From Acidovorax sp. NCPPB 3576 (GTDB lineage Bacteria; Pseudomonadota; Gammaproteobacteria; Burkholderiales; Burkholderiaceae_C), in assembly GCF_028473605.1 (NCBI RefSeq), contig NZ_CP097267.1, forward strand, positions 1,430,501-1,494,500: a DNA stretch of 64,000 bases. The letters run 5' to 3'. Each line of letters starts with the position of its first letter. The first letter of the stretch is position 1. The notes beneath the pieces were generated by a model. That model searched no databases and was not told the origin of the DNA. It was given only the letters and a program-made list of their open reading frames with translations. The position numbers were made by a program, and so were the translations under genes. Shown here in pieces: positions 4,661-55,710 of this stretch.

Positions 4661-4717
4661 CAAAAAAGGCTTCAGCGCAATCAATACTAGGGCAGGTAGC
4701 TATGAAAATAATAGCAA
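4661..4717 (-). repeat. Dispersed stem-loop repeat, copy 1
   Basis: Read on the minus strand it has TTGCTATTATTTTCATAGC, then TGCCCTAGT, then TTGCGCTGAAGCC and a T-run. It belongs to the eight-copy family described in the findings and lies between the VF530 gene and the LysR stop codon. Confidence 0.8.
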
Positions 4718-4721
4718 TCGC

Positions 4722-5633
4722 TCAGGTCTGCAAATACCGTTCGTTGGCGAACAGCTCCGCCGCCCAGTCCACGAAGGCCCGCACCTTGGCGCTCAGGTGC
4801 CGGTTGGGCGGGTACACCACGTAGATCGGAATCGGCGGAATGGACCATTCGGGCAGCAGGCGCACGAGGTCGCCGCGCTCCAGTTGCCGCGCTGCCTGGA
4901 ACAGCGTGACCTGTCCCACGCCGCGCCCAGCGATCAGGGCGGCGGCGTAGGCATTGGCTTCGTTCACCGCCAGTTGGGACGGGCCGGTGATCTCGATCAT
5001 TTCGCCGTCGCGCAGAAACTCCAGCGGATAGCGGCGCGTGGACAGCGGCGAGAAATAAATCACGCTCTTGTGGTCGCCCTCCAGATCCAGAGGGTGGCTG
5101 GGCGTGCCGTAGCGCTCCAGGTAGGCCGGCGAGGCCACGGTGACGAAGTCCAGGTTGCCGATGCGCCGCGCCACCAGCGACTGGTCGGTCAGCTCGCCGC
5201 CGCGGATCACGCAATCGACGTTGTCGCCGATCAGGTCCACCGGCCGGTCGCTCACGCCCAGGTCGATCTGGATGTCGGGAAAGCGGGAGTGGAACTCCTC
5301 CAGCCGCGGAATGATGAGCAGCCGCGCCACCGAGGTGCCCACGTCCACGCGCAGCCGGCCGCTGGGCGTGGCGCGCGCGTGCGTCATGCTCGCCTCGATG
5401 TCGTCGAAATCGGCGAGCAGGCGCACGGTGCGGTCGTAGTAGGCCGCGCCGTCGGCCGTGACGGTCACGCGCCGCGTGGTGCGGTTGAGCAGCTTCACGC
5501 GCAGCCGCGCCTCGAGCGCCTGCACGTACTTGGTGATGGTCGCCTTGGGCAATTGGAGCGAATCGGCTGCCCGCGTGAACGTGCCCGCTTCCACTACCCT
5601 TGCAAAAACCCGCATGGCCTGGATCTGGTCCAT
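4722..5633 (-). CDS. LysR-family transcriptional regulator
   Basis: 303 aa. It has an N-terminal winged helix-turn-helix (MDQIQAMRVFARVVEAG, then AADSLQLPKATITKYVQALE) and a LysR substrate-binding domain with RLLIIPRLEEF and LIGDNVDCVIRGGEL, of the CrgA/AphB-like subgroup. ATG 5633 has GGAGGG immediately upstream; the frame is open to 5681 but without a ribosome site there. It is divergent from the hydrolase-fold gene that precedes the RND efflux operon and probably controls it, through a palindrome at 5696-5714. The effector is unknown. Confidence 0.93.
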   Translation of the reverse strand: MDQIQAMRVFARVVEAGTFTRAADSLQLPKATITKYVQALEARLRVKLLNRTTRRVTVTADGAAYYDRTVRLLADFDDIEASMTHARATPSGRLRVDVGTSVARLLIIPRLEEFHSRFPDIQIDLGVSDRPVDLIGDNVDCVIRGGELTDQSLVARRIGNLDFVTVASPAYLERYGTPSHPLDLEGDHKSVIYFSPLSTRRYPLEFLRDGEMIEITGPSQLAVNEANAYAAALIAGRGVGQVTLFQAARQLERGDLVRLLPEWSIPPIPIYVVYPPNRHLSAKVRAFVDWAAELFANERYLQT

Positions 5634-5695
5634 GGGCCCTCCTTCTCTCTCTGGCCCCGGATGGGGCCAGGGAATTCTCACACGGGCCAGCGCCG

Positions 5696-5714
5696 CCGAT
5701 TGTTCGGCAATCGG
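5696..5714. promoter_or_regulatory. Palindromic operator candidate
   Basis: CCGATTG-TTCGG-CAATCGG: perfect 7-base arms with a 5-base centre, in the 166-base divergent gap between the LysR gene and the hydrolase-fold gene. Position and symmetry suit a LysR-type binding site. No binding data. Confidence 0.45.
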
Positions 5715-5799
5715 AAACAGAGCTGTGGCGTTTGCCTGGTTTATCGTCGGCGGCTGCGTCGCTACATTTCACTCACCCGGTCCTTGTCCGGTCAACGCC

Positions 5800-6639
5800 A
5801 TGTCCAGCACCCTCACCACACCGCCGCCGTCTTCCACTTGCACCGACACCACCATTGAGGTGGCCAAGGGGCAGGAAGTGGCCGTGCGCATGTATGGCCG
5901 CAAGAAGCCCAAGGAAACGCTGCCGCTGGTGGTGCATTTTCATGGCGGCGCCTTCGTGGCGGGCGATCTGGACAATGGCTGCACGGTGGCCCGGCTGCTG
6001 GAGCGTGCCGGGGCGCTGGTGGTGTCGGTGGCGTACCCGCTCTCGCCCGACCATCCGTTCCCGCAGCCGGTGGACGCCGGCTATCTGGTGCTCAAGTGGG
6101 TGCACAAGCACCGCACGCGCCTGGCCGGCTCCGGCGCCGCGGTGTACGTGGCGGGCGAGGAGGCCGGCGGCAACCTGGCCGCCGGCGTGGCGCTGATGGC
6201 GCGCGACCAGTCCCATCCCCCGCTGGCGGGGCAGATCCTGCTGTCGCCCATGCTCGACCCCTGCGGTGCCACGCCTTCGGTGCGTGCCGCCATGGGCGAA
6301 TCGACCGCCTGCAAGTGGGCCGATGGCTGGCTGCAGTTCCTGCGCTGCACCCGCGATGCCGAACACCCCTATGCCGTGCCCGCGATGGCGCAGCGGCTGG
6401 CCGGCTTGCCGCACACCTTGGTGCTGGTGGGCGACGACGATCCCATGCGCGACGAAGCCCTGGCCTACGCCACGCGGCTGCAGTCGGCGGGGTTGCAAGT
6501 CACGCAGCACGTGTTCGCCAAGGCCAACCAGTGGCCCGATGCCCTGCTGCAGCCCGGTTCGGGCGAATGTCCCTGTGCGCCCGAGGTTCAGGCGCAGTTC
6601 AGCCGTTTCTTCGAGGCCACCCGATGTCCTGCGCCCTGA
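5800..6639 (+). CDS. Alpha/beta-hydrolase-fold protein lacking catalytic Ser and His
   Basis: 279 aa, alpha/beta hydrolase-3 (hormone-sensitive lipase-like) fold. The oxyanion-hole motif HGGAF is at residues 48-52, followed by SVAYPLSPDHPFPQPVDA. The nucleophile elbow, normally GDSAGG, reads GEEAGG (residues 119-124), so the Ser is Glu121. The acid motif DDDPMRDEALAYATRLQSAG is conserved. The segment where the catalytic His should be (H-G-F) reads KANQWPDAL. The fold is clear, but classical esterase activity looks impossible; it may be a binding or regulatory pseudoenzyme. The ATG at 5800 fits the start of family homology. It is codirectional with the RND genes 235 bases downstream. Confidence 0.85.
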   Translation: MSSTLTTPPPSSTCTDTTIEVAKGQEVAVRMYGRKKPKETLPLVVHFHGGAFVAGDLDNGCTVARLLERAGALVVSVAYPLSPDHPFPQPVDAGYLVLKWVHKHRTRLAGSGAAVYVAGEEAGGNLAAGVALMARDQSHPPLAGQILLSPMLDPCGATPSVRAAMGESTACKWADGWLQFLRCTRDAEHPYAVPAMAQRLAGLPHTLVLVGDDDPMRDEALAYATRLQSAGLQVTQHVFAKANQWPDALLQPGSGECPCAPEVQAQFSRFFEATRCPAP

Positions 6640-6681
6640 CCCTCACCACCACCGACCTGCCGCGCTGACCAGCGGGGTGCA

Positions 6682-6712
6682 TTGACCTCAACCCCGATTG
6701 AGGTTTGATACT
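6682..6712 (+). promoter_or_regulatory. SoxR-type operator and promoter of the RND operon
   Basis: A -35 hexamer TTGACC (6682-6687) runs into the inverted repeat ACCTCAA-N6-TTGAGGT (6685-6704). This is followed by a -10-like GATACT (6707-6712), leaving a 19-base spacer. Long spacers with a central palindrome are the signature of MerR-family promoters, and CCTCAA/TTGAGG are the half-sites known for SoxR boxes, including those of Pseudomonas efflux genes. The site is about 165 bases upstream of the adaptor ATG. No soxR gene is in the window. The match is by eye. Confidence 0.7.
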
Positions 6713-6874
6713 GCGATCCGCTCCGGCGAGCCGCACGACCCGCCTTTCGCCGCCTTTCCGCTGTTGACCGCGTTCCCTTTTGTTTCTGGCCCCCGTGGGC
6801 CGGAAGGGGCAACCCTTGCCCGATCGATTTCGACTTTTTGCCTTTGCCTTGAAAAAACCCGGAGGACTTCCACC

Positions 6875-8122
6875 ATGAACCCGCAACACACCACCCCTTC
6901 CCGTCGCCGCTGGTGGGCCGCCGCTGGCGCCGCGGCCGCCATTGCCGCGGCGGGCGGCACGCTTTTCGGGCTGCCCAGCTCGCACGCCGAATCCCCCGGT
7001 CCCGAGGCCGCGCCGCCGGCCGTGCCCGTCTCCGTGGCCGCCGTGCTGCAGCAGGAGATCGCGCTGTGGGACGAGTTTTCGGGCCGGCTCGAAGCCGTGC
7101 AGCGCGTGGACATCCGCCCGCGCGTGGGCGGCGCCGTGCAGGCCGTGCATTTCCGTGAAGGCTCGCTGGTCAAGCAGGGCGACCTGCTGGTCACGGTGGA
7201 CCCTGCGCCCTACGCCGCTGACGTGGACCGCGCCGAAGCCCAGGTGGTCGCCGCACAGGCCCGCGTGTCCTACACCCGCAGCGAAATGGAGCGCGCCACG
7301 CGCCTGTGGGAAGAGCGTGCCATCGCCCAGCGCGAGCACGACGAACGCATGAACGCCCAGCGCGAGGCCGATGCCAACCTGCGCGCCGCGCAGGCCGCGC
7401 TGCAGACGGCGCGCCTGAACCTGGGCTACACCCAGGTGCGCGCCCCGGTCGCGGGCCGCGTGGGACGCATCGAGGTCACCATGGGCAACCTGGTGGCCGC
7501 GGGCGCTGGCGCGCCGGTGCTGACCACGCTGGTGTCGGTGAGCCCGATCTACGCGAGCTTCGACACCGACGAGCAGATCGTGGCGAAGGCGCTGGAGGGC
7601 CTGCGTTCGGGCAAGAGCGCGCGCACGCTGATCGAGAGCATTCCGGTGCAGATGGGCACGGGCACGGCCGGCGGCACGCCGCACACCGGCCACCTGCAGC
7701 TCATCGACAACCAGGTCGATGCCCGCAGCGGCACGGTGCGCGTGCGCGCCGTGTTCGACAACGCCGACGGCGTGCTCATGCCGGGCCAGTTCGCCCGCAT
7801 CCGCATGGGCCAGGTGAAGAACACCCAGGCCGTGCTGATCAACGAGCGCGCCGTGGGCACGGACCAGAACAAGAAGTACGTGATGGTGGTGGGCGAAGGC
7901 AACAAGGCCGAGTACCGCGAGGTGCAGCTGGGCGCGCCGGTGAACGGCTTGCGCGTCGTCACCTCGGGCCTGAAGGCCGGCGAGCGCATCGTCGTGAACG
8001 GCCTGCAGCGCGTGCGCCCTGGCGCCCAGGTCGCCCCGCAGGACGTGCCCATGACCGCCAAGGCCGGCATGGCCGGCGATGGCGCCGAGGCCCGCACCGC
8101 CGCCAAGCAGCCCGCGGCGTGA
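6875..8122 (+). CDS. RND efflux periplasmic adaptor (MexE/AcrA-like)
   Basis: 415 aa membrane-fusion protein that links the inner-membrane pump to the outer-membrane channel. It has an N-terminal hydrophobic anchor or signal (residues 12-40), the MexE-like WDEFSGRLEAVQRVDIRPRVGG, and a lipoyl half VHFREGSLVKQGDLL. A long helical hairpin covers about residues 105-175, the second lipoyl half is YTQVRAPVAGRVGRI, and beta-barrel and membrane-proximal domains end in GLKAGERIVVNGLQRVRPG. The ATG at 6875 follows GGAGGA (6861-6866). It is the first gene of a three-gene pump operon. MexE is the closest recognisable relative; substrates cannot be inferred. Confidence 0.93.
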   Translation: MNPQHTTPSRRRWWAAAGAAAAIAAAGGTLFGLPSSHAESPGPEAAPPAVPVSVAAVLQQEIALWDEFSGRLEAVQRVDIRPRVGGAVQAVHFREGSLVKQGDLLVTVDPAPYAADVDRAEAQVVAAQARVSYTRSEMERATRLWEERAIAQREHDERMNAQREADANLRAAQAALQTARLNLGYTQVRAPVAGRVGRIEVTMGNLVAAGAGAPVLTTLVSVSPIYASFDTDEQIVAKALEGLRSGKSARTLIESIPVQMGTGTAGGTPHTGHLQLIDNQVDARSGTVRVRAVFDNADGVLMPGQFARIRMGQVKNTQAVLINERAVGTDQNKKYVMVVGEGNKAEYREVQLGAPVNGLRVVTSGLKAGERIVVNGLQRVRPGAQVAPQDVPMTAKAGMAGDGAEARTAAKQPAA

Positions 8123-8147
8123 TCGCGGAGCGCCAAGAAAGAACGCT

Positions 8148-11100
8148 ATGAATCTCTCCCGCTTTTTCATCGACCGCCCCATCTTCGCCGGGGTGCTGTC
8201 GGTGCTCATCTTCCTGTCGGGGCTGATCGCGCTGCGCGCGCTGCCGATCTCGGAATACCCCGAAGTCGCGCCGCCCTCGGTGGTGGTGCGCGCCACCTAT
8301 CCCGGTGCCAACCCCAAGGTGATCGCCGAGACCGTGGCCACGCCGCTGGAGGAATCCATCAACGGCGTGGAAGGCATGCTCTACATGGGCAGCCAGGCCA
8401 CCACCGACGGCGTGATGACCCTGACCGTGACGTTCGCTTTGGGCACCGACCCCGACAAGGCCCAGCAGCTGGTGCAAAACCGCGTCTCGCAGGCCGAGCC
8501 GCGCCTGCCCGAGGAGGTGCGCCGCTTGGGCATCACGACCGTCAAGAGCGCGCCCGACCTGACGATGGTCGTGCACATGGTCTCGCCCAACGGCCGCTAC
8601 GGCATCGACTACCTGCGCAACTACGCCGTGCTGAACGTGAAGGACCGGCTCGCCCGCATCCAGGGCGTGGGCCAGGTGCAGATCTTCGGCGGCGGCGATT
8701 ATTCGATGCGCGCCTGGCTTGACCCGCAGAAGGTCGCGCAGCGCGGCCTGTCGGCGGCTGACGTGGTGGCCGCCATCCGCGGCCAGAACGTGCAGGCCGC
8801 GGCCGGCGTGGTGGGGCAGTCGCCCGGCCTGCCCGGCGTGGACATGCAACTGTCGATCAATGCGCAGGGCCGCCTGCAGACCGAAGAGTAGTTCGGCGAC
8901 ATCATCGTGAAGACCGGCAGCGACGGCGCGGTGACGCGCCTGCGCGACGTGGCCCGGCTGGAGCTGGGCGCGGCCGACTACTCGCTGCGCTCGCTGCTCA
9001 ACAACGACCCGGCCGTGGGCATGGGCGTGTTCCAGGCACCGGGCTCCAACGCGCTCGACATCTCGTCGAACGTGCGCAAGACCATGGCCGAGCTGCAAAA
9101 GAACATGCCCGAAGGCGTGGAGTTCCGCATTGCCTACGACCCGACGCAGTTCGTGCGCGCCTCCATCAAGTCGGTGATCCAGACCCTGCTGGAAGCCGTG
9201 GCGCTGGTGGTGGTCGTGGTGATCCTGTTCCTGCAGACTTGGCGCGCCTCCATCATTCCGCTGCTGGCCGTGCCGGTGTCGGTGGTGGGCACGTTCGCGG
9301 TGCTGCACCTGCTGGGTTTCTCGATCAACGCGCTCTCGCTGTTCGGCCTGGTGCTGGCCATCGGCATCGTGGTGGACGACGCCATCGTGGTGGTGGAGAA
9401 CGTGGAGCGCAACATCGAGGCGGGACTGACCCCGCGCGAGGCCACCTACCGCGCCATGCGCGAAGTGTCCGGCCCCATCATCGCCATCGCGCTGGTGCTG
9501 GTGGCGGTGTTCGTGCCGTTGGCGTTCATCAGCGGGCTCACGGGGCAGTTCTACCGCCAGTTCGCGGTGACCATCGCGATCTCCACGGTGATCTCGGCGA
9601 TCAATTCGCTCACGCTGTCGCCCGCCCTGAGCGCGCTCTTGCTCAAGGGCCACCATGAACCGAAGGATGCGTTGACGCGCGGCATGGACAAGGTGCTGGG
9701 CGGGTTCTTCCGCCGCTTCAACAGCGTGTTCCACCGGGGTTCCGAGGCCTACAGCGGCGGCGTCAAGCGCGTCATCGGCCGCAAGGCGCTGATGCTGGTG
9801 ATCTACGCCGCGCTGGTGGCGGCCACCTGGGGCCTGTTCAAGATCGTGCCGGGCGGCTTCGTGCCGGCGCAGGACAAGCAGTACCTGGTGGGCTTTGCGC
9901 AGTTGCCCGACGGCGCCACGCTGGACCGCACCGAGGACGTGATCCGCCGCATGGGCGAGATCGTCAAGAAGAACCCGAACGTGGAAGACGCCATCGCCTT
10001 CCCGGGCCTGTCGATCAACGGCTTCACCAACAGCTCCAACTCCGGCATCGTGTTCGTCACGCTCAAGCCCTTCGCCGAGCGCGGCCGCGCGGACCAGGGC
10101 GGCGGTGCCGTCGCGGGCCAGTTGAACCAGGCCTTCGGCAGCATCCAGGATGCGTTCATCGCCATGTTCCCGCCGCCCCCGGTGGCCGGCCTGGGCACGA
10201 CGGGCGGCTTCAAGCTGCAGATCGAAGACCGTGCCTCGCTGGGCTACGAGGCCATGGACGCCGCCGTGAAGGCCTTCATGGGCAAGGCGTACCAGACGCC
10301 GGAACTCGCTGGCCTGTTCACGAGCTGGCAGGTCAACGTGCCGCAGCTGTACGCCAACATCGACCGCACCAAGGCGCGGCAACTGGGCGTGCCGGTGACG
10401 GACATCTTCGAGACGCTGCAGATCTACCTGGGCAGCCTGTATGCCAACGACTTCAACCAGTTCGGGCGCACCTACAGCGTGCGCGTGCAGGCCGATGCGG
10501 CCTTCCGGGCGCGGGCCGAGGACGTGGGCCTGCTCAAGGTGCGTTCCACCACGGGCGAGATGGTGCCGCTGTCGGCACTGATGAAGCTCGAGCCCAGCTT
10601 CGGCCCCGAGCGCGCCATGCGCTACAACGGCTTCCTGTCGGCGGACGTGAACGGCGGGCCCGCACCCGGCTTCTCGTCGGGCCAGGCGCAGGCCGCCATC
10701 GAGCGCATCGCCGCCGAGACGCTGCCGCAGGGCATCGGCTTCGAGTGGACCGAGCTGACCTACCAGGAAATCCTGGCCGGCAATTCCGCCGTGCTGGTGT
10801 TCCCCATCGCGATCCTGCTGGTGTTCCTGGTGCTGGCCGCGCAGTACGAAAGCCTCACGCTGCCCATCGCCATCATCCTGATCGTGCCCATGGGCCTGCT
10901 GGCTGCGATGACGGGCGTGTGGCTGTCAGGCGGCGACAACAACGTGTTCACGCAGATCGGGCTCATCGTGCTGGTGGGGCTGTCGGCGAAGAACGCCATC
11001 CTGATCGTGGAGTTCGCCCGCGAGCTGGAGTTTGCCGGCCGCACGCCCGTGCAGGCCGCCATCGAGGCCAGCCGCCTGCGGCTGCGCCCCATCCTGATGA

Positions 11101-11387
11101 CGTCGCTGGCGTTCGTGATGGGTGTGCTGCCGCTGGTGCTGTCCACCGGCGCGGGCGCAGAGATGCGCAGCGCCATGGGCGTGGCGGTGTTCGCCGGAAT
11201 GATCGGGGTGACGGCCTTCGGCCTGTTCCTCACGCCGGTGTTCTACGTGGCGCTGCGCCGCTTGGCCGGCAACCGGCCGCTGCAGCAGCACGGCAGCCAC
11301 ACCGCGCCCTTGACCGATACCTCCGGGACCGGCGCTGGCGCCGTGGCCCACCCCGTGCTGGCGTCGCCGCGCGGGCATAACGAATGA
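8148..11387 (+). pseudogene. RND efflux permease (MexF/AcrB-like) with in-frame amber codon
   Basis: 1079 codons from ATG 8148, full length for the family, but codon 248 (8889-8891) is TAG. The frame is otherwise open on both sides: ...GRLQTEE-stop-FGDIIVKTG, where relatives read TEEEFGDII, so one GAG became TAG. Everything else is intact: MNLSRFFIDRPIFAGVLS start, proton-relay Asp pair in LVLAIGIVVDDAIVV, the TM10 Lys in GLSAKNAILIVEFA, and 12 membrane segments. A second translation start at 8907 could make only a fragment lacking TM1 and part of the porter domain. As written the pump should be non-functional unless the codon is suppressed or the base is wrong. The upstream gap is 25 bases; the downstream gene starts within 20 bases. 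Confidence 0.9.
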
Positions 11388-11404
11388 GCGAAGGAGTTCA
11401 TGCG

Positions 11405-12898: not shown

Positions 12899-13082
12899 TC
12901 CGCTGCGTGTCCGCGCGTGGCGCGGCCCCGGCCCCGCGCGCGCTTTGGGGATGTAACCGCGCGGACTGCACGGGCCGGCGAACGGGCCTATAGTTGCCCG
13001 TTGCTGCCGCGCAGCCTAGGCCCCCGCGGCAGGGTTCGCCCCCTTCTTTTCACCCATCCCCGACAGCAGGAGCATTCACACA

Positions 13083-14519: not shown

Positions 14520-14550
14520 TCGAACGACCGGCCGATTTGGCCGTTTGAAA

Positions 14551-17263: not shown

Positions 17264-17266
17264 TTC

Positions 17267-17873: not shown

Positions 17874-20090
17874 TCAGAACCGATACGTGCCCGTCATCGT
17901 GTAGGTGCGCCGCTGGCCGTAGAAGCAATCGCCGCGCGCCAGGCACTGGGTGATCTGCACCTTGTCGGCCAGGTTGACCACGTTGAAGGCCAGGCGCCAG
18001 CTGCCGGCGTCGTAGGCCGCCATGGCATCGGCGATGAGCGCCGATGGCGTGGTGATGGCGGTGGTGCCGGTCCATTGCGAGCCGGTGTAGCGCACGCCGG
18101 CGCCCACCGTCCAGCCGCCTCGCCCTTCGGCCGCGAAGCGGTGCATGAGCCAGCTCGATGCCGTGTGCTTGGGCACGCTGGCCACGGGCAGGCCCTGGTC
18201 GCCGGCGTTGCTGCGCGAGATGACGGCGTCGGTGTAGGCGTAGCCCACCGTCCAGTCCCAGCTGCGGGCCAGGCTGGCGGTCATCTCGGCCTCGAAGCCC
18301 TTGGTCTTCACCTCGCCGATCTGCAGGCTGTTGAGCGGGTTGGAGGGGTCGTTGGTCTTGCGGTTCTTCTCGCGCAACTGGTACACGGCGGCATAGGCGC
18401 TGATGCCCCGGTCCTGCGGCTGCCACTTCACGCCGGCTTCCCACTGCTCGCCGCGCTGGGGCTTGAACGGGGTGCCGAAGAAGTCCACGCCGCCCAGCGG
18501 CTGGAACGATTCGGAGTAGCCCACGTACGGTGCCCAGCCGCCATCGGCCTGGTAGGTGGCGCCCACGCGCTTGGTCCAGGCGGTGTCGTCCACGGCGGCG
18601 GCGGGGCGGCCGACCGTCTCGGTCTTGGCGCTGTCGTGGCGCAGGCCGAGCGTGGCCGTCCAGCGGCCCCAGCGGATCTGGTCCTGGGCGTAAAAGCCCA
18701 ACTGGCGCTGGGTGACGTTGGGCTGGCGCACCAGCGCGGAGGCCGAGGGCGCGGTGAAGTTGCCATACACCGGCGCGTACGCATCGATGCCCGAGATGGT
18801 CTGGAACCACGAGGACTGGCTGGTTTCGTTGCGCTGCGCGTCCATGCCGGCGAGCAGCGTGTGCTCGGTGGCGCCAGCCTGCACCTTGCCTTCGATCTGC
18901 GTATCCGCCAGCAGCAGGCGGCTGGAGTTGACCTGCCAGGAGGCGTCGCGCAGCAGCGTGCGGTTGTCCGCTTCGAACACCGGGCGCGCCGGCCGGCCGG
19001 TGGCGCGGTTGGCGGAGAAGCTGGTGTAGATGCTGCGGTAGTCCACCTCGCTCACGGTGCGGCGCAGGTTCTGGCGCACGGTCCAGTTATCGTTCAGGCG
19101 GTGGCTGAACAGGTAGCCCCAGGAGTTGTTCTCGGTGTCGAAGGCGTCCCAGCCCGGTTCGCTGATGAAGGTCGAGGTCGGGATCTGGCCGTAGGGGCTG
19201 GACAGCCGCGTGCCCTGCCAGGGGAAGAAGCCGATCAGCGAGCCGCTCTGGTCCTTCTGGTGCGTGAACTGCAGCGTGAGCGAGGTGGCCGCGTTGGGCT
19301 TCCAGGTGAGCGACGGGGCGAGGATGAGGCGGTCGTCGCTCACGTGGTTGACCTGCGAGTCGCTGTCGCGGCCTACGGCCACGAGCCGGTAGAGCCACTC
19401 GCCGTCCTGCGTGAGCGGGCCCGTCATGTCGGCGGCGATCTGCTTGCGCGCGTAGTTGCCCAGCTGCACCTGCACTTCGCGCAGCGGCTCGGCCTGCGGG
19501 CGCTTGCTGGTGAGGTTGAGCACACCGCCCACGCTGCCCTGGCCGTACAGCACGGACGAGGGGCCGCGCAAAAATTCGACGCGCTCCAGCAGGTAGGGTT
19601 CGGCCTTGGTGTTGTTGTAGGTGCCGTAGGTGCGCATCAGGCCGTCCTGGTACTGTGTCACGCTGCCGCCGCGCGCCGTGAAGCTGTCCACCCGGCTGTC
19701 GAAGTAGTTGGACACCATGCCGGCGGTGTAGGCCGTGGTCTGGCGCAGGGTCAGCGCGCCTTGCGCCTCCATCTGGTCGCGCGTGACGACGCTGATGGCC
19801 TGCGGGGTTTCGATGAGCGGCGTGTCGGTCTTGGTGGCCGACAGCGCCCGCTTGGCGACGAAGCCGCTGACGGGCGCGGTGGGGCTTTCCTGCTCGGTGC
19901 CGGCCTTGACGGTCACGGGGGCCAGGGTGGTTTCGGCCACGGGCGCGGCGGTCTGCGCATGGGTTGCTGAGGTACCCATGCCGCACAGCAGCGCGATCGC
20001 GGTGTGCAAGGCGGCAGCCAGGGGCAGGGGGCGGCAGGGCGTGCCATGGGAGCGCGGGGTGCGCGGGGTGCGCGGAGTGTGTGAAGGCAT
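17874..20090 (-). CDS. TonB-dependent siderophore receptor (second of locus)
   Basis: 738 aa outer-membrane receptor for a ferric siderophore. It has a signal peptide ending THAQ and a plug domain with IETPQAISVVTRDQM, FLRGPSSVLYGQGSVGGVLNLTSKRP and a DGL loop. A 22-strand barrel follows, ending in the aromatic terminal residue F (GTYRF) after FNVVNLADK. It belongs to the FhuA/FoxA/FhuE-type group; the siderophore cannot be named. The N-terminus has a repeated PRT tract from a 9-base tandem repeat (20051-20079). The ATG at 20090 is separated from its only AGGAG by a 17-base stem-loop belonging to a dispersed repeat, see findings. It is the last gene of the iron locus. Confidence 0.93.
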   Translation of the reverse strand: MPSHTPRTPRTPRSHGTPCRPLPLAAALHTAIALLCGMGTSATHAQTAAPVAETTLAPVTVKAGTEQESPTAPVSGFVAKRALSATKTDTPLIETPQAISVVTRDQMEAQGALTLRQTTAYTAGMVSNYFDSRVDSFTARGGSVTQYQDGLMRTYGTYNNTKAEPYLLERVEFLRGPSSVLYGQGSVGGVLNLTSKRPQAEPLREVQVQLGNYARKQIAADMTGPLTQDGEWLYRLVAVGRDSDSQVNHVSDDRLILAPSLTWKPNAATSLTLQFTHQKDQSGSLIGFFPWQGTRLSSPYGQIPTSTFISEPGWDAFDTENNSWGYLFSHRLNDNWTVRQNLRRTVSEVDYRSIYTSFSANRATGRPARPVFEADNRTLLRDASWQVNSSRLLLADTQIEGKVQAGATEHTLLAGMDAQRNETSQSSWFQTISGIDAYAPVYGNFTAPSASALVRQPNVTQRQLGFYAQDQIRWGRWTATLGLRHDSAKTETVGRPAAAVDDTAWTKRVGATYQADGGWAPYVGYSESFQPLGGVDFFGTPFKPQRGEQWEAGVKWQPQDRGISAYAAVYQLREKNRKTNDPSNPLNSLQIGEVKTKGFEAEMTASLARSWDWTVGYAYTDAVISRSNAGDQGLPVASVPKHTASSWLMHRFAAEGRGGWTVGAGVRYTGSQWTGTTAITTPSALIADAMAAYDAGSWRLAFNVVNLADKVQITQCLARGDCFYGQRRTYTMTGTYRF

Positions 20091-20150
20091 TTTGCTATTG
20101 AATTAATAGCGCTCCTGGCAATGAATCCGCTGGCAGGAGGGCTGGTTGAT
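20091..20150 (+). repeat. Dispersed stem-loop repeat, copy 2
   Basis: TTTGCTATTGAATTAATAGC with a diverged right half (CCGCTGGCAGGAGG). It abuts the TonB-receptor start codon. On the minus strand AGGAGC is followed by GCTATT-AATTC-AATAGC, AAA and ATG. Confidence 0.75.
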
Positions 20151-20251
20151 TGGAAAATGCAGCGCGCAGGGCGCCGCAGCGTTCACTGCGCGGTGGCAGT
20201 GAACGGTCTTCGGTGGGGAAGTGGCCCGTCAGCGCGGGCCGGGTGCAGCGG

Positions 20252-20971: not shown

Positions 20972-21008
20972 CGAAAAGCTCCTGTGAAGACAGAGGTTGG
21001 GAAAACGG

Positions 21009-21068
21009 TTTGCTATTAAATTAATAGCTATATCCCCTAGGGGAATATGCGGTAGAGGCCTTTTTGAT
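21009..21068 (+). repeat. Dispersed stem-loop repeat, copy 3
   Basis: TTTGCTATTAAATTAATAGC, then CCCCTAGGGGAATATGCGG and AGGCCTTTTTGATG. This is one of the most complete copies, in the gap between TonB receptor 1 and the DUF4198 gene. Confidence 0.85.
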
Positions 21069-21112
21069 GCGGACGGCCTTGGGCGCCGGCCGCCGGCATC
21101 CGGCCCCCCCGC

Positions 21113-29170: not shown

Positions 29171-29629
29171 CGGAGTAGTCACCGGGCGGCTTGTGCTGGC
29201 CGCCTGGCTTGATCCGCTTTTTTGGCAGAGGCCGGCGCAGGTGTGGCCGGCCATGCGTTTTCCCGTCGAACGCTTCGTTTCGCGCGCCCCGTTGGGTGGC
29301 ATCCTGTTGCGGGTGCGGCTGTCCCCCCCCGAACTGGCGTGAGGCATCTGCCCCGACTGCGGGGCCGCGTACCGTGAGCCGTCGGGTGGCTCATCTCAGG
29401 CCTGGTGCGCGGCAGGTTCCCCGCCGACCTTGGCAGAGGCGCCAGCAATCGTTCCTGCACGGATCGCACCCTGGCGCGAGAACGACTGGCTGTCTTGAGG
29501 TGTGATTGAGCAGCGGTGAGCTGCTTCGGTTTGATTGCTATATTTTGAATAGCAAAAGACCGTTTTCCTTATTGCGCTGGAGGCCAATTGGCCCCTCAGC
29601 TTTTGACGAAACGCAATGCCGGGCCGGTT
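29171..29629. repeat. 459-base gap with dispersed repeat copy 4
   Basis: I see no credible gene. A repeat copy is at about 29534-29594: TTGCTATATTTTGAATAGC, then TTGCGCTGGAGGCC. The preceding 300 bases are GC-rich with no recognisable domain; they may be decayed sequence. Confidence 0.7.
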
Positions 29630-42116: not shown

Positions 42117-42476
42117 TCAGCGGCCGACGCCGAGCAGTTCCACGTCGAACTTCAAGGTGGCGTTCGGCGGGATCACGCCACCGGCGCCGCGGGCCCCGTA
42201 GCCGAGAGCGGCCGGGATGATCAGCGTGCGCTGGCCGCCCACCTTCATGCCCTGCACGCCTTCGTCCCAGCCCTTGATCACCATGCCGGCACCCAGGCCG
42301 AACTCGAACGGATCGTTGCGGTCGCGGCTGGAGTCGAACTTGGCGCCTTGCTCTTCGTTGTTGTAGAGCCAGCCGGTGTAATGCACGCTGACATGGTTGC
42401 CGCGCGTGGCCTCGGCGCCTTCGCCCACGACGGTGTCTTCGTATTGCAGGCCGGAGGGGGTGGTGGTGAATGCCAT
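42117..42476 (-). CDS. FKBP-type peptidyl-prolyl isomerase
   Basis: 119 aa single-domain FKBP, cytoplasmic. It speeds cis/trans isomerisation of Xaa-Pro bonds. The binding-pocket residues are visible: VHYTGWLYN, FDSSRDRNDPFEFGLG, VIKGWDEGVQGM, TLIIPAALGYGARG and IPPNATLKFDVELL. ATG 42476 follows AAAGGAAC; a longer frame to 42491 adds five residues. A dispersed repeat copy lies just upstream. Confidence 0.95.
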   Translation of the reverse strand: MAFTTTPSGLQYEDTVVGEGAEATRGNHVSVHYTGWLYNNEEQGAKFDSSRDRNDPFEFGLGAGMVIKGWDEGVQGMKVGGQRTLIIPAALGYGARGAGGVIPPNATLKFDVELLGVGR

Positions 42477-42489: not shown

Positions 42490-42549
42490 AAAATGCTACT
42501 GAAATGATAGCGATATGCCCTAGTGCTGATTGCGCTGGAGCCCTAAAAT
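42490..42549 (+). repeat. Dispersed stem-loop repeat, copy 5
   Basis: ATGCTACTGAAATGATAGC, then TGCCCTAGTGCTGATTGCG and CTGGAGCCC. It lies between FKBP and HxlR genes. Confidence 0.85.
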
Positions 42550-42621
42550 ACCAAACCCGCGCAGCGCGCGGGTCGGGCGGGGTGGCGGATGCTGGAGGGG
42601 CCTCGCGCCGGCTTGGCTGGC

Positions 42622-43017: not shown

Positions 43018-43080
43018 ATTTTGCTACAAGTTTAATAGCTCCAGAGCTGCACCCCACCTGCGCTGCGGGGTAAAAATACT
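43018..43080 (+). repeat. Dispersed stem-loop repeat, copy 6 (degenerate)
   Basis: TTTTGCTACAAGTTTAATAGC, then TGCGCTGCGG; the middle CCCTAG block is missing. Confidence 0.6.
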
Positions 43081-46379: not shown

Positions 46380-46457
46380 CACCCGAGGCCAGGCCCATCG
46401 AGCGCGGCAAAGACCGCGCCGCCCTTTCTTTCAAAAAACGATCACGGAGACAAAACC

Positions 46458-47468: not shown

Positions 47469-47493
47469 GGCCGAGGCGCTCCGTCCTGACGCA

Positions 47494-47531
47494 CCGCAGC
47501 GCGGGGCCGGCATGCCGGCCCCGCGCTGCGG
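47494..47531. terminator. 38-bp perfect palindrome between convergent genes
   Basis: Nineteen-base arms centred on GCATGC with no mismatch (left arm starts CCGCAGCGCGGGGCC). There is no U-tract. It is between the Bug stop and the SgcJ-like stop, so probably a bidirectional termination or mRNA-end hairpin. Confidence 0.6.
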
Positions 47532-47553
47532 GAGGGTGAAGAATCTGACTCGT

Positions 47554-48036: not shown

Positions 48037-48204
48037 GGGGTCCTTTGAAAAAAGTGGGTCAGGCGCCGGCTTTCACCGGCACTGCATCGCTCACTGCGAT
48101 ACAGGACCTATTCTTCAAGGCGCGCATGAATACGGCCGTTGCAGCCCGATGAAGGGCAGATGACGCAAAAATGAACCGCGGATGAACAGGCTTTCGCCCT
48201 GGTG

Positions 48205-50552: not shown

Positions 50553-50623
50553 TATGTTCCGGGCCGCAGAGCCCCCCGGCTGCTGGCGGGGCTCAGGCCA
50601 GGTGCAATCGCAGGCATGATCCT

Positions 50624-50680
50624 GTTGCTATAAAAATAGTAGCAAAAAGGGCAATGAATACTAAGGCGCAGAGGCTATCG
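50624..50680 (+). repeat. Dispersed stem-loop repeat, copy 7
   Basis: GTTGCTATAAAAATAGTAGC, then AGGGCAATGAATACTAAGGC and GCAGAGGC. It overlaps the LysR stop codon. Confidence 0.75.
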
Positions 50681-51628
50681 GGCTGGAATGGCATCGGCCA
50701 TGGCCAATGCCCAGAGCGACTCGGCCACGGGCGACATTTCGGCGCGCTGGCGGTACAGGCGGATCTCCACCGGCACGTTCCAGGCCTCATCGCCGGCGGC
50801 CACCAGCGTGCCGGCCCGCAGTTCGTCGGCGATGAGGCTGCGCGGCAGCCAGGCCACGCCGCGCCCCTCCAGCGCCATGGTCTTGAGCAGCACCGCGTGG
50901 TGCGCGGTGAACACCACCGCCACACCGCCCGGCACGGCCGACTCCACACCATCGCCGTACACGCCGCGCATCCGCGCCCGCATGATGCGGCCCAGGCCCG
51001 AGGCGTCGCTGTACGCCAGCAGGGGCAGCGGCGCGCCGTCCCGGCCGATGGCGTGCAGCGGACCGCCGGCGGGGCCCGCCGCGCTCACCGGCTGCAGCAC
51101 GTCGTCCGACAGCCGCTGCATGGGGTATTGCGCGTCGTCCAGGCGGCCTGGCGCTTCGGCGTGTCCGTGGCACAGCACGAACTGCACGCGCCGCTGCAGC
51201 GCCAGGTCTTCGCACGCGCGGGAGCTGTCCGACATGGTCTGTATCGGCCCCAGGCGCAGTTGCGCCTCCAGGTGGCCCAGCCAGCGCGGAAAGAACGTGA
51301 GCGACAGCACGTGCGTGGCCGCGAAGCGCAGGCTGGCGGCCGCCGTATCGTGCGCGGCGCGCGCCTTGATGCGCGCGGCCTCCAGGTTGGCCAGCAGGGT
51401 TTCCATCAGCGGCAGAAAGCGCTGCCCCGCCGGCGTGAGCGCGGCCGGGTGGGCGCTGCGGTCGAACAGCTCCACGCCCACCCATTCCTCCAGCGCGCGG
51501 ATGTGGCGGCTGAACGCGGGCTGGGCGATGGCCCGGGCCTCGGCCGCGCGCGAGAAATTGCCGCACTCGGCCAGCGCCAGGAAGTCTTCCAGCCATTCCA
51601 GATCGAGGGGGCGGTTGCCAGGTCCCAT
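50675..51628 (-). CDS. LysR-family transcriptional regulator
   Basis: 317 aa. Helix-turn-helix: LEWLEDFLALAECGNFSRAA, then IAQPAFSRHIRALEEWVGVEL. The effector-binding domain includes HVLSLTFFPRWLGHLEAQLRL and VVFTAHHAVLLKTMALEGRG. The ATG at 51628 is the family-like start (MGPGNRPLDLEWLE). It is divergent from the DHDPS-like/Bug/SDR/TarD operon and probably its activator. Its 3' end is overlapped by repeat copy 7. Confidence 0.92.
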   Translation of the reverse strand: MGPGNRPLDLEWLEDFLALAECGNFSRAAEARAIAQPAFSRHIRALEEWVGVELFDRSAHPAALTPAGQRFLPLMETLLANLEAARIKARAAHDTAAASLRFAATHVLSLTFFPRWLGHLEAQLRLGPIQTMSDSSRACEDLALQRRVQFVLCHGHAEAPGRLDDAQYPMQRLSDDVLQPVSAAGPAGGPLHAIGRDGAPLPLLAYSDASGLGRIMRARMRGVYGDGVESAVPGGVAVVFTAHHAVLLKTMALEGRGVAWLPRSLIADELRAGTLVAAGDEAWNVPVEIRLYRQRAEMSPVAESLWALAMADAIPAR

Positions 51629-51743
51629 GGGCGTCGTGTTCCGTGCAGATAGATGTATGCGATTCGGGTATTGGACGGTGCGGGGCCGTCGCCGGAAGAT
51701 CCGCTGCGTTGTCGTTCCCCTGCACCCATCACGGAGACCTTGA

Positions 51744-52682
51744 ATGCCTTCCATCGCGAATTATCGCGGGATCATCCCCGCCATCTCGTGCCCCTTCACC
51801 CCCGACCACCGCATCGACGAGCCCGCCCTGCGCAAGCTCGCCGCCTGGCTGGCCGGCCACGAGGGCGTGGTGGCCATCATGACCAACGGGCACACCGGCG
51901 AGGTGTTTTCCCTCACACCCGCCGAGCGCGCCGAGGTCACCCGCATCGTGGCCGACGAGCTGAAGGGCCGCACGCCCGTCATCTCCTCCATCGTCTGCGA
52001 GGGCCTGGCCGAAGCCGCCGAACATGCCCGCGCCGCCCAGGCCGCCGGCGCCGTGGCGCTGGATGTCATGCCCCCCCACCACTGGCTGCGCTTCGGCTTC
52101 ACGCCGGGCCATGCGCTGCAGTATTTCGAGGCCATCCACCGGGCCGCGCCGGGCCTGGATCTGGTGTGCCACGTGTACCCGGCCTGGACGCGTGCTTCGT
52201 ACTCGTCGCAGTTGCTGGCCGAACTGGCCCGGCTGCCCTACCTGCAGGCCTTCAAGGTGGGCCAGCGCGACATGAACAAGTACGCCCGCGACATCCAGGC
52301 GATCCGCGAGGCCGATGCCTCCAAGGCCATCCTGACCTGCCACGACGAATACCTGCTGGCCTCGATGGTGCAGGGCGTCGATGGCGCGCTGGTGGGCTTT
52401 GCCACCTTCATTCCGCAACTCATCATCGACCTGTGGAACGCCGTGAAGGCCGGCGACCTGAAGAAAGCCATGGCCGTGCAGGCGGTCATCACGCCGCTCA
52501 AGGACGCGGTGTACGGCGGCGGCGAGCCCACGGGCGAGGCCCATGCGCGCATGAAGGGCGGCATGTACCTGGCCGGCGTGATCGACGACGCCACCGTGCG
52601 CCCGCCCACCGAGGCGCCCAACGCACAGGAGGTCGAGGCTCTGCGCGCCGCCGTGCGGCAGGCGGGCCTGCTCCAGCGCTGA
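51744..52682 (+). CDS. Dihydrodipicolinate-synthase-family aldolase
   Basis: 312 aa TIM-barrel class I aldolase. Schiff-base Lys171 (LQAFKVGQRD) and catalytic Tyr145 (CHVYPAW) are present. The GTTGE motif of true DapA is GHTGE here, so the first Thr is replaced by His and the protein is unlikely to make lysine. The sub-family includes enzymes acting on keto-acids such as dehydro-deoxy-sugar acids. GGAGA precedes ATG 51744. First gene of the tartrate cluster. Confidence 0.9.
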   Translation: MPSIANYRGIIPAISCPFTPDHRIDEPALRKLAAWLAGHEGVVAIMTNGHTGEVFSLTPAERAEVTRIVADELKGRTPVISSIVCEGLAEAAEHARAAQAAGAVALDVMPPHHWLRFGFTPGHALQYFEAIHRAAPGLDLVCHVYPAWTRASYSSQLLAELARLPYLQAFKVGQRDMNKYARDIQAIREADASKAILTCHDEYLLASMVQGVDGALVGFATFIPQLIIDLWNAVKAGDLKKAMAVQAVITPLKDAVYGGGEPTGEAHARMKGGMYLAGVIDDATVRPPTEAPNAQEVEALRAAVRQAGLLQR

Positions 52683-52767
52683 CTTGGGCGGACGCCATGA
52701 CAAGACGGGCCGCACCGCACGGCCCGCACCGGACATTCGCAACCCCCATAAAGACAGGAGACAAGCC

Positions 52768-53736
52768 ATGCAACGCAAGCCATTCCTCCGCGCCGTGCTC
52801 GGCGCCCTGGCGCTCGCCGCGGCCACCACCAGCGTTTTCGCGCAGACCTATCCGGCCAAGCCGGTGCGCGTGGTGATCCCCTTCCCGCCGGGCGGAACGC
52901 TCGATGCCGTGGGCCGCATGCTGGCGCAAAAGCTGGGTGAGCAGACGGGTCAGACGTTCATCATCGACAACAAGCCCGGCGGCAGCGGCGTGATCGGCGG
53001 CGACACGGTCGCCAAGGCCCCGGCGCACGGCTACACGCTGCTGTTCAGCGCCTCCACCTTCACGACCGCGCCGATGACGCTCAAGTCGGTCCCGTTCAGC
53101 GTCACGCGGGACTTCGCGCCCGTGGCGCTGGTGGCCAAGGCGCCCTTGTCGGTGGCGGTCAACAAGGACCTGCCGGTGACCGACATCCAATCCCTGCTGG
53201 GCTACGCCAGGAGCCACCCCGGCAAGATGACCTTCGCCGTGGGCTCCATCGGGTCGGCGGGGCATCTCTCGACCGAGCTGCTGAAACGGGCCGGCAAGAT
53301 CGACTACCTCATCGTGCCCTACAAGGGCACGGCCCCGGCCTTCCAGGACCTGATCGGCGGGCAGATCGACGGCTTCATCGACCCCATCCTCGGCTCGCTC
53401 CAGTACCACAAGAGCGGCATGCTGAAAGTGGTGGCCGTGACCTCCGCCCAGCGCGTGCCTAACCTGCCCGACGTGCCCACGGTGGCCGAGACCCTTCCCG
53501 GCTTCGAGTTCTACAGCTGGTACGGCCTGTGGGCCCCGGCCAAGACGCCGCCCGCGCTGGTGCAGCGCCTGAACGCCGAGGTGAACAAGGCCCTGGCCGG
53601 CGACATGGCCCAGAAGCTCAAGGACCAGGGCCTGCTCGTCACGCCGGGCAGCGTGGACGACTTCGCCAGGTTCCAGCGCGCCGACATGGAGCGCTCCCAG
53701 AAGATCGTGACCGAGGGCAATATCCGTGCGGAATGA
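52768..53736 (+). CDS. Bug-family (TctC-like) substrate-binding protein
   Basis: 322 aa. Signal peptide ends TTSVFAQ; core YPAKPVRVVIPFPPGGTLDAVGRML, FIIDNKPGGSGVIGG, LIVPYKGTAPAFQDLIGGQ and LPDVPTVAETLPGF. ATG 52768 follows CAGGAG. Its gene overlaps the SDR start by 11 bases. By context it captures the sugar acid or tartrate-like substrate. Confidence 0.93.
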   Translation: MQRKPFLRAVLGALALAAATTSVFAQTYPAKPVRVVIPFPPGGTLDAVGRMLAQKLGEQTGQTFIIDNKPGGSGVIGGDTVAKAPAHGYTLLFSASTFTTAPMTLKSVPFSVTRDFAPVALVAKAPLSVAVNKDLPVTDIQSLLGYARSHPGKMTFAVGSIGSAGHLSTELLKRAGKIDYLIVPYKGTAPAFQDLIGGQIDGFIDPILGSLQYHKSGMLKVVAVTSAQRVPNLPDVPTVAETLPGFEFYSWYGLWAPAKTPPALVQRLNAEVNKALAGDMAQKLKDQGLLVTPGSVDDFARFQRADMERSQKIVTEGNIRAE

Positions 53737-54439
53737 CGGCACGCCGCCACCCGGCGCCCATGCCGCCGTCACCGGCAGCAGCAGCGGCATCGGCCGCGCC
53801 ATCGCCGAATCGCTGCTGGCGGCGGGCTGGCACGTGAGCGGGCTGGACGTGGCCGCGCCGACCATCGAACACGCCGCGTTCACGCCCGTGGCCGTGGATC
53901 TGGCCGATGGCGAAGACATCGCCCGTGCCGCCGCGGGGCTGCCGGCCGTCCAGGCCCTGGTGCATGCCGCCGGCGTGCTGCGCGTGGGCCCGCTGGGCCG
54001 GCTGGACCACGCGGGCGGCGAGCTGATGTGGCGCCTGCACGTCGATGCCGCCACGCGCCTGGCCGATGCCATCGTGCCCGCCATGGCCGCGCGCGGGCAG
54101 GGCCGGGTGGTGTTCATCGGCAGCCGCGTGGCGCAGGGCATGCCCGGGCGCGGCCAGTACGCGGCCACCAAGGCGGCGCTGGTCGCGCTGGCGCGCAGCT
54201 GGGCGGCCGAAGTGGCGGGGCAGGGCGTGACGGTGAACGTCGTCTCGCCCGCCGCCACGGCCACCGGCATGCTGAACGACCCGGCCCGCGCCGGCAGCGC
54301 ACCGCGCCTGCCGCCCATCGGCCGCCTCATCGAGCCCGGCGAGATCGCCGCGCTCGTGGGCTACCTGTTGTCGCCACCGGCGGCGGCCATCACGGGGCAG
54401 GACATCGCCATCTGCGGGGGCTCTTCGCTCGCCCGCTGA
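53726..54439 (+). CDS. Short-chain dehydrogenase/reductase
   Basis: 237 aa. Rossmann start AAVTGSSSGIGRAIAESLL; HAAGV replaces the usual NAAG; active site Ser in FIGSRVAQG and the YxxxK pair in QYAATKAALV; PGEIAALVGYLLSP and ITGQDIAICGGSS at the end. The start is GTG 53726 inside the Bug gene, so translation is coupled. It probably oxidises or reduces a hydroxy or keto acid in the tartrate-linked pathway. Confidence 0.9.
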   Translation: MRNDGTPPPGAHAAVTGSSSGIGRAIAESLLAAGWHVSGLDVAAPTIEHAAFTPVAVDLADGEDIARAAAGLPAVQALVHAAGVLRVGPLGRLDHAGGELMWRLHVDAATRLADAIVPAMAARGQGRVVFIGSRVAQGMPGRGQYAATKAALVALARSWAAEVAGQGVTVNVVSPAATATGMLNDPARAGSAPRLPPIGRLIEPGEIAALVGYLLSPPAAAITGQDIAICGGSSLAR

Positions 54440-54467
54440 TCCTTCTTTTCTCAACCACCCGACCACC

Positions 54468-55634
54468 ATGAAAATCGTCGATATCGTCGAATCCACCCGC
54501 CCGATCCAATCGGACATCCGCAACGCCTACATCGATTTTTCGAAGATGACCCTGAGCCTGGTGGCCGTCGTCACCGACGTGGTCCGCGACGGCAAGCCGG
54601 TGATCGGCTACGGCTTCAATTCCAACGGCCGCTACGGCCAGGGCGCGCTGATGCGCGACCGCTTCATCCCGCGCGTGCTCGAAGCCGACCCCGCCACGCT
54701 GGTGGATGCGACGGGCGAGAACCTCGACCCGCACAAGGTCTGGGCCCGCATGATGATCAACGAAAAGCCCGGCGGCCACGGCGAGCGCTCGGTGGCCGTG
54801 GGCACCATCGACATGGCCGTGTGGGACGCGGTGGCCAAGATCGCCGGCCAGCCGCTCTATCAGTTGCTGGCCGAACGCTACGGCAACGGCACGCCCGACC
54901 CGCGCGTCTTCGTGTATGCCGCCGGCGGCTACTACTACCCCGGCAAGGGGCTGGACGGCCTCAAGAAGGAAATGGAGAGCTACCTGGCGCGCGGCTATTC
55001 GGTGGTCAAGATGAAGATCGGCGGCGCCTCGCTGGCCGACGATTGCGAGCGCATCGAGTCGGTGCTCAAGATCCTCGGCCCGGGCCAGCAACTGGCGGTG
55101 GATGCCAACGGCCGGTTCGACCTGCCGACCGCCATCGACTACGGCCGCGCCCTGTCCCAGTACCCGCTGTTCTGGTACGAAGAGGCGGGCGACCCGCTCG
55201 ACTACGAACTGCAGGCCAAGCTGGGAGAGGTGTACCAGGGCCCCATGGCCACGGGCGAGAACCTGTTTTCGATGCAGGACGCGCGCAACCTCATCCGCCA
55301 CGGCGGCATGCACAAGGACCGCGACTGGCTGCAGTTCGACTGCGCCCTGAGCTACGGCCTGGTCGAATACCTGCGCACGCTGGACATGCTCAAGGACCAT
55401 GGCTGGTCCCCCAGCCGCTGCATCCCCCACGGCGGCCACCAGATGTCGCTGGCCATCGCGGCGGGCCTGGGCCTGGGCGGCAACGAGAGCTATCCCGACC
55501 TGTTCCAGCCCTACGGCGGCTTTCCGGACGGCGTGAAGGTGGAGAGCGGCTACGTCACGCTGCCGCCGTTGCCGGGCATCGGGTTCGAGGGCAAATCCGA
55601 CCTGATCGCGGAGATGCGTGCGCTGGCTTCCTGA
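54468..55634 (+). CDS. tarD: D(-)-tartrate dehydratase (enolase superfamily)
   Basis: 388 aa. It converts D-tartrate to oxaloacetate. The sequence follows the characterised Bradyrhizobium TarD closely as I remember it: IRNAYIDFSKMT, GYGFNSNGRYGQG, MMINEKPGGHGERSVAVGTI, VKMKIGG with Lys181/Lys183, PHGGHQMSL with His321, and NESYPDLFQPYGGFPDG. The metal ligands sit in VDANGRF, WYEEAGDP and ATGENLFS. The start at 54468 gives MKIVDIVEST. It is the last enzyme of the cluster. Confidence 0.9.
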   Translation: MKIVDIVESTRPIQSDIRNAYIDFSKMTLSLVAVVTDVVRDGKPVIGYGFNSNGRYGQGALMRDRFIPRVLEADPATLVDATGENLDPHKVWARMMINEKPGGHGERSVAVGTIDMAVWDAVAKIAGQPLYQLLAERYGNGTPDPRVFVYAAGGYYYPGKGLDGLKKEMESYLARGYSVVKMKIGGASLADDCERIESVLKILGPGQQLAVDANGRFDLPTAIDYGRALSQYPLFWYEEAGDPLDYELQAKLGEVYQGPMATGENLFSMQDARNLIRHGGMHKDRDWLQFDCALSYGLVEYLRTLDMLKDHGWSPSRCIPHGGHQMSLAIAAGLGLGGNESYPDLFQPYGGFPDGVKVESGYVTLPPLPGIGFEGKSDLIAEMRALAS

Positions 55635-55649
55635 AAAAGGTTTGGGGAG

Positions 55650-55710
55650 GTTTGCTATTAAAAAGTGAGCAATATGCCCTAGTGGAATATGCGCTGATGG
55701 CCTTTTTGAT
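55650..55710 (+). repeat. Dispersed stem-loop repeat, copy 8
   Basis: TTTGCTATTAAAAAGTGAGC, then TGCCCTAGTGGAATATGCGC and GATGGCCTTTTTGAT. Nearly the same as copy 3 in its right half. Confidence 0.85.

Follow-up and report, generated by a model that had tools for sequence, protein, structure and literature searches.

A REP/BIME-like intergenic repeat of Acidovorax and other Comamonadaceae, inherited at its sites and with a clade-specific middle block

Copies in the Window and in the Genome

The stretch of DNA analysed here, hereafter the window, comprises 64 kb (67.7% G+C) of the genome of Acidovorax sp. NCPPB 3576 (G000, a single contig of 5,414,205 bp, of which it is C1:1430501-1494500), and between its genes lie eight places that carry all or part of a short repeat. 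One stretch of this genome matches DNA of Paracidovorax valerianellae at 96.6% over 2.3 kb and at 94.9% over 2.2 kb, and the genus is therefore probably Paracidovorax. The repeated element is about 65 nt long, has a G+C content of 42%, and consists of a palindrome, GCTA-N9-TAGC, followed by a middle block, GCCCTAGTNNNNATTGCGCTGGAGGCC, and an A/T tract. The family is real, resembles the repetitive extragenic palindromic (REP) sequences and the bacterial interspersed mosaic elements (BIMEs), and is passed on at its sites under partial constraint instead of merely decaying. The surprising part of the finding is the middle block, which takes a different form in one clade of four species (G000, G159, G160 and G163). 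It has long been debated whether REP-type repeats are selfish debris or working sites, and to our knowledge little site-by-site comparative evidence bears on this debate. Here, the same sites can be traced between species: the sites persist, some of their letters are constrained and others free, and one block has changed clade-wide.

Five of the eight places hold full members of the family (type A), scoring 48.7-68.7 bits with a covariance model that was built from 25 copies, these five being included in its training alignment. They lie at 4655..4719 (minus strand, 63.3 bits, ortholog in G159), 21008..21072 (plus, 68.7 bits, orthologs in G159 and G163), 29533..29597 (plus, 48.7 bits, between convergent genes and with an altered GCCCTAG block), 42491..42555 (plus, 58.8 bits, orthologs in G159, G160 and G163), and 55650..55714 (plus, 61.8 bits, ortholog in G159). 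The first of them begins 3 nt past the stop codon of a gene encoding a LysR-type regulator (4722-5633, minus, identified with Pfam), and the last sits 16 nt past the stop codon of the gene at 54468-55634. Two other places, 20090..20154 (plus, 22.5 bits, orthologs in G159 and G163) and 50623..50687 (plus, 15.9 bits, its palindrome also present in G159, G160 and G163), carry type B copies, in which the left palindrome is joined to an inverted middle. At the remaining one, 43018..43080 (plus, orthologs in G159, G160 and G163), the left palindrome is followed by an unrelated right half and the model gives no match. This right half has hardly changed in G159 and is well preserved in G160 and G163, and the place may be a regulatory site.

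The original prediction had described these places as an eight-copy family with a shared left hairpin, middle block and right block. The palindrome is indeed found at all eight (with one letter changed at 55650), and all eight lie between called genes, as had been claimed, the copy at 50624 overlapping the 3' end of one of them by about 6 nt. The shared blocks hold only in part, with the exact GCCCTAG in three of the eight, an inverted middle at 20091 and 50624, and another right half at 43018. The suggestion that the genome may hold hundreds of copies was borne out, and chance-level matching, which would have spoken against the family, is excluded. Thus, a strict pattern had 21 matches in its own genome, and 31 fixed letters with up to three mismatches had 162 (91 plus, 71 minus), against none for either in the reversed control, while the exact pattern TAGC-N5-GCCCTAG-N7-TGC had 175, also against none in the control. 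A covariance-model scan of the genome recovered at least 150 copies, the 150 scored candidates all passing at E <= 6.5e-8.

The consensus of 124 seed copies reads TTGCTAT-N7-ATAGC (H), about 4 nt, TGCCCTAGTNNNNATTGCGCTGGAGGCC (M), an A/T tract and GACTCAAA. H is a 17-nt palindrome; M is palindromic in its GCGCTTG form and has no clean palindrome in its GCCCTAG form. In type B copies M is inverted whilst H and the tail are unchanged, and copies with M preceding H are also listed. When 1.2 Mb of the sister genome G159 was scanned mechanically, 34 CCCTAG, 5 GCGC and 9 inverted copies emerged. The element is a modular construction of the palindrome H, M in either orientation, and an A/T tract. Outside the genus, the middle forms a palindrome, GCGCTTGATGGATAAGCGC, and is followed by the same TGGAGGCC, the left palindrome often being degenerate; since its left arm degenerates in this way, a reading of the palindrome as a promoter, with TGCTAT as an extended -10, was dropped. 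The tail was also looked at by eye as a possible IHF site. Two copies of the source genome, at G000:C1:683725 and 686529, are identical over the 50-nt pattern and lie 2.8 kb apart, perhaps as a result of local duplication.

Position Relative to Genes

Genes were called with a home-made caller based on codon usage, in 100 stretches around copies and in the window, without comparison with an annotation. Neighbouring genes were called for 124 type A copies, of which 8 extend more than 30 nt into such a gene. The remaining 116 are intergenic, 41 lying between convergent genes, 40 between tandem genes and in their sense, 30 between tandem genes and in the opposite sense to them, and 5 between divergent genes. 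The median distance past the stop codon is 18 nt for the left end of the element (n=81) and 25 nt for the right end (n=71). Of the gaps of 70-800 nt, 54 are convergent and 34 of these contain a copy, the corresponding figures being 65 of 212 for tandem gaps and 5 of 84 for divergent ones (convergent versus divergent, P = 3e-13; tandem versus divergent, P = 2e-6). As the stretches had been picked for containing copies, only the contrast between gap types counts in these figures. Thus, the element lies closely behind stop codons, can point either way, and avoids the gaps between divergent genes.

Inheritance and Base-Specific Constraint

The flanks of 130 elements of the source genome (127 type A and 3 others) were searched in the section of G159 from 1.0 to 2.2 Mb, where 33 were colinear, 96 were without both flanks, and 1 was not colinear. 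The element is held in all 30 colinear gaps of similar length, which indicates that it has not been recently mobile. The three other gaps are long; hairpin motifs were found in one of them and not in those of 1125367 and 1460036, the latter being the copy at 29533 in the window, whose gap in G159 is 2.4 kb longer. The copy at 50624 is retained in G160 and G163, where the adjoining intergenic sequence can no longer be aligned.

Across 27 type A pairs of the source genome and G159, positions -2 to 56 are free of gaps, with some at -3 and 57-61; in the same comparison, gap columns make up 7% of the intergenic flanks. Mismatches amount to 303/1573 in the intergenic flank and 79/1335 in the coding flank, and within the element to 73/837 in the core of 31 positions, 124/486 at variable positions and 59/343 in the tail. 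Taking into account that the copies of the source genome were chosen by consensus, half the flank rate is a fair neutral value for the core, and its overall change of 8.7%, about half the flank rate, is therefore not low. Its distribution is uneven, 14 of the 31 core positions being unchanged when 2.0 would be expected under this neutral value (P = 2e-9), whereas CGC at 39-41 is altered in 23 of 81 cells. G24, C25 and positions 27-29 are invariant whereas 41-44 vary, and positions 5 and 13 of the palindrome combine as CA in 24 cases and CG in 2. Pairing is thus not what is conserved, because most of the 5x13 combinations are not complementary and the partners of the invariant left arm of M vary. 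The constraint is base-specific, and internal gaps are absent. Positions 39-40 (CG) differ in 8 and 9 of the 27 pairs though nearly fixed among the source genome's copies, which had been selected for these letters; the changes look like CG-to-TG/CA.

Dialects of the Middle Block

A more distant congener, G157, was searched over 0.4 Mb for the flanks of these 130 elements: 12 were colinear (11 distinct intervals), 16 were one-sided or not colinear, and 102 gave nothing. In 10 of the 11 intervals, whose flank identity is 75-89%, G157 has the element in the same orientation and always with GCGCTT; interval 1043165 has none, and one interval has two elements in the source genome and one in G157. 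At nine of the ten occupied intervals the source genome has GCCCTAG in seven, GCCATAG at 4303106 and GCGCCAC at 4160505. The letters of palindrome and tail that are specific to each locus are nevertheless common to both genomes in these nine pairs (0.699 versus 0.570 permuted, P = 0.0008; with the tail or the palindrome taken by itself, P = 0.001 and P = 0.04, respectively), and these are therefore orthologous elements with a different middle and not independent insertions. Given the occupancy, the shared orientation and the GCGCTT...AAGCGC-type middles of G157, one four-species clade has changed M at inherited sites. In other genera and congeners, the element is in the gap in 20 of 20 colinear comparisons, 18 of them in the same orientation, at loci preselected for the element.

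Exact counts delimit the two forms. The GCCCTAG form occurs 175 times in the source genome, 129 in G159, 63 in G160 and 38 in G163, and is absent from the other 13 genomes of the genus. The GCGCTTG form has 3, 5, 8 and 11 matches in the same four genomes (controls 0-4, a level that counts of up to about 5 scarcely exceed), and 147 in G157, 57 in G164, 37 in G088 and 22 in G161, with 0-2 in the remaining genomes of the genus. Within the window, the site at 42490 has GCCCTAG in all four genomes of the clade, and that at 21009 has a GCGC-type element in G163 and CCCTAG in the source genome and G159. In a sample of 150 genomes of the family, 51 have at least one match to the GCGCTTG form and 18 have at least 14 (controls at most 6), the richest being G015 (420), G136 (351) and G010 (232). 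Nine of the 17 genomes of the genus (G150-G156, G158 and G162) have 0-2 exact matches to either dialect; in them the element may have been lost or may have a further form.

Transposase Genes and Strand Polarity

A link with a REP-associated tyrosine transposase (RAYT) had been raised for this repeat, and the genomes do not bear it out. The source genome has one Y1_Tnp match, a 238-aa protein above the Pfam cut-off and below that of the NCBIfam REP-transposase model. Its gene (L053:1450-2163, at about 1.026 Mb of G000:C1) has a reversed type B element upstream, which directly follows the preceding gene, as is usual for elements here, and by eye a decayed copy 3' of it. Y1 matches are present in 112 of the 150 family genomes, regardless of how abundant the element is, and in 16 of the 18 copy-rich ones, with none in G141 (87 copies) and G095 (57); copy number does not track the presence of a cognate transposase in this sample. 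When the source locus and 18 others (at least 40% identity) were compared, the element was upstream of the gene in 3 of the 19 (source genome, G159 and G157), and a gene flanked by two inverted copies, as in RAYT-linked REPs, is unsupported. Current RAYT-driven mobility is thus unsupported, in view of the occupied G159 gaps, the presence of Y1 genes regardless of abundance, and these few adjoining loci. In G015, 20 Y1_Tnp matches, several of them split or disrupted, accompany the 420 GCGCTTG-form elements.

The copies show a leading-strand bias of varying strength. The GC skew of the sampled stretches of the source genome turns near 0 and near 2.57 Mb, and relative to these points the leading strand carries 95 of 150 copies in forward orientation (P = 0.0014), the called genes of the sampled stretches being divided into 352 leading and 330 lagging. 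By context, leading-strand copies are 25/40 among same-sense, 20/30 among opposite-sense, and 24/41 among convergent ones. For G157, 94 of the 147 copies counted were used from those listed, six entries (three palindromic double matches) being left out; among the copies used, 36 are minus and 8 plus at 0-1.4 Mb, where the sampled skew is mostly negative, and 27 are plus and 15 minus at 1.4-2.82 Mb, the best split being reached in 26 of 20,000 permutations. The 26 copies listed for G004, out of 142, are all plus, at 0.05-1.70 Mb, and all 26 belong to the positive-skew half, the cumulative skew climbing to 1.62 Mb and then dropping. In G128, of unknown skew, 21 of 26 listed copies are plus.

Comparison with Known Repeat Systems

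According to PMC3733652, REPs have the same 3' distribution, being placed between convergent or tandem genes and often within 20 bp of stop codons. The element resembles the REPs and BIMEs of that description in its many dispersed and palindromic copies, which are mostly in convergent or tandem gaps near stops, and in having modules in both orientations; unlike them, it is longer, about 65 nt, and AT-rich within a GC-rich genome. REP palindromes span 20-40 bp; here H has 17 nt, and M is a palindrome as well in its GCGCTTG form, though not a clean one in its GCCCTAG form. A further difference is that its middle block takes clade-specific forms at inherited sites. The unpaired head that marks the GTAG and CGTC super-families of REPs was not found: in no zone beside the palindromes do more than 3 of 127 copies have GTAG, GTGG, CGTC or GGAG. 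The classification as REP- or miniature inverted-repeat transposable element (MITE)-type repeats thus stands as regards copy number, size, palindromes and position 3' of genes, and is unsupported as regards a mobile REP or MITE as the present state. As to the terminal inverted repeats and target duplication by which a MITE is recognised at empty sites, the ends of the element are only TTTG...CAAA-like, and the 33 colinear G159 gaps include no clean empty site.

As with RAYT-associated REPs and REPINs, there is a Y1 transposase gene in the genome, and the polarity of the element would fit single-strand copying; unlike them, elements do not usually lie beside the gene, which two copy-rich genomes lack. 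Lagging-strand targeting is described for Y1 transposases in PMC6006769, and in PMC2817692 the RAYTs satisfying its definition are reported to be confined to gammaproteobacteria.

The lack of a formal name, as originally stated, agrees with the literature searched, in which none was found, subscription journals being mostly outside it and some results being swamped by unrelated papers; six beta-proteobacterial names, which were looked for, are not mentioned in PMC3733652. The Beta-proteobacterial repeat element (BRE) of PMC3110155 is reported to be intergenic in Acidovorax, Polaromonas, Delftia and others, about 90 bp long with 69% G+C, often in tandem, and present in at most 29 copies. The present element, of about 65 nt and 42% G+C and with more than 160 dispersed copies, is set apart from it by this description and not by a comparison of letters.

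Interpretation and Alternative Explanations

Sites of the REP/BIME kind are bound by proteins of the host or shield the 3' ends of mRNAs. Taking into account that sites and key letters are kept in relatives wherever a comparison was possible, and that the middle section differs between species groups, the copies described here resemble functional sites more than repeats in decay; the graded decay originally seen among them gives way to fully occupied comparable gaps in the sister genome and to letters that are in part constrained. The element is best filed as a REP/BIME-like variant kept as a putative sequence-recognised 3'-end site. We tentatively prefer, at a little under an even chance, a history in which a REP/BIME-like set of the Comamonadaceae has turned into a maintained cis-site. 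Mainly insertions behind genes would have survived, and a putative host factor, reading the sequence in DNA or in nascent RNA, would now make use of the site behind its genes, at their 3' ends. Recognition may then have changed in the clade formed by G000, G159, G160 and G163, and M may have shifted, site by site, from GCGCTTG...AAGCGC to GCCCTAG...ATTGCGC. Such a dialect shift of a cis-code at many orthologous sites, each keeping its own loop and tail, is slightly more doubtful than this general history. If true, it needs a putative reader of shifted specificity that pulled the sites along or, alternatively, a putative short-tract conversion that copied only M between sites. The two dialects make the question of what reads these repeats directly testable, and they offer a system for the concerted change of many bacterial cis-sites.

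Several observations weigh against this preferred history. No clean empty site occurs among the 33 colinear G159 gaps, and single-strand copying is suggested by the polarity alone. This polarity is weak in the source genome, not being significant in its convergent subset (25/42 including gene-overlapping copies, P = 0.28); it is mixed in G003 (19/26 listed copies at the best split), which speaks against a uniform rule, and in G142, a congener of G004, both strands are used inside single contigs. Moreover, 21 of 127 copies of the source genome are without a full A/T run at 51-54. Consensus selection of these copies could by itself yield the overall core rate (73/837), and the case for constraint depends on the uneven spread of the changes and the missing gaps. 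The reader factor and the function of the sites are putative.

An element acting through the pairing of its transcript, as an intrinsic terminator or as a double hairpin protecting mRNA 3' ends, would also be located at the 3' ends of genes. Folding agrees with it (right part, -9.1 versus -5.3 kcal/mol shuffled; left part, -4.2 versus -0.3), as do a T tract in 79 of 127 copies of the source genome and a right arm pairable, G-U included, in 98 of 107 copies of the GCGCTTG form, where the selecting pattern itself fixed GCGC on both arms. GCGC versus GGGC/GCCC stems differ, by eye, between genera. We consider this explanation unlikely: the T tract is independent of an upstream sense gene (64/81 versus 26/35, P = 0.63) and is replaced by an A tract in 12 of 127 copies, orientation between tandem genes is unbiased (40:30, P = 0.28), and the compensatory stem changes that had been proposed as proof of RNA structure were sought among 127 copies and not found. 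In a test scan of 15.1 kb, moreover, none of 13 terminator-like matches consisted of the element's forward stem and its T tract. The T-tract independence, the test scan and the unbiased orientation also weaken an intrinsic terminator as the whole story. Searches of Rfam (E <= 1, no positive control) gave no match at the elements, and neither did plasmids, phages and viral contigs, again without a positive control and with records of the own or near-identical genomes possibly excluded.

A neutral history, in which the copies are left over from an old REP/MITE expansion and persist only because deletions seldom remove intergenic DNA behind genes, would account for their high number, their dispersion between genes in both orientations, and the free divergence of flanks and variable positions. 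It is made improbable by the 27 pairs without internal gaps, the 14 invariant core positions, the persistence of the 50624 element in G160 and G163 amid unalignable sequence, and the retention in 10 of 11 intervals of G157 at such flank identity. The strand bias of G004 (26/26 listed), of the arcs of G157 (36:8 and 27:15, listed) and of the source genome (95/150) recalls polar chromosome signals, like FtsK-guiding or Chi-like sites, that are read in replication, segregation or repair; this is very improbable for a long element with palindromes that avoids genes and whose polarity is too weak in the source genome and mixed in G142 and G003. Hardly credible, finally, is a DNA uptake sequence (DUS) of natural transformation. 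PMC3630211 describes DUS as genome-wide sites with dialects, often forming inverted repeats behind genes, and the element is likewise dispersed, partly palindromic, behind genes and of clade-specific form; DUS are shorter and far more numerous, 1,543-3,603 against 175 in the source genome, and the element is about 65 nt long and has strand polarity.

Besides the repeat, the window contains at 42146-42248 (minus) a weak match to the Rfam family tfoR, scoring 24.1 bits where the gathering score is 70, which is probably due to chance.

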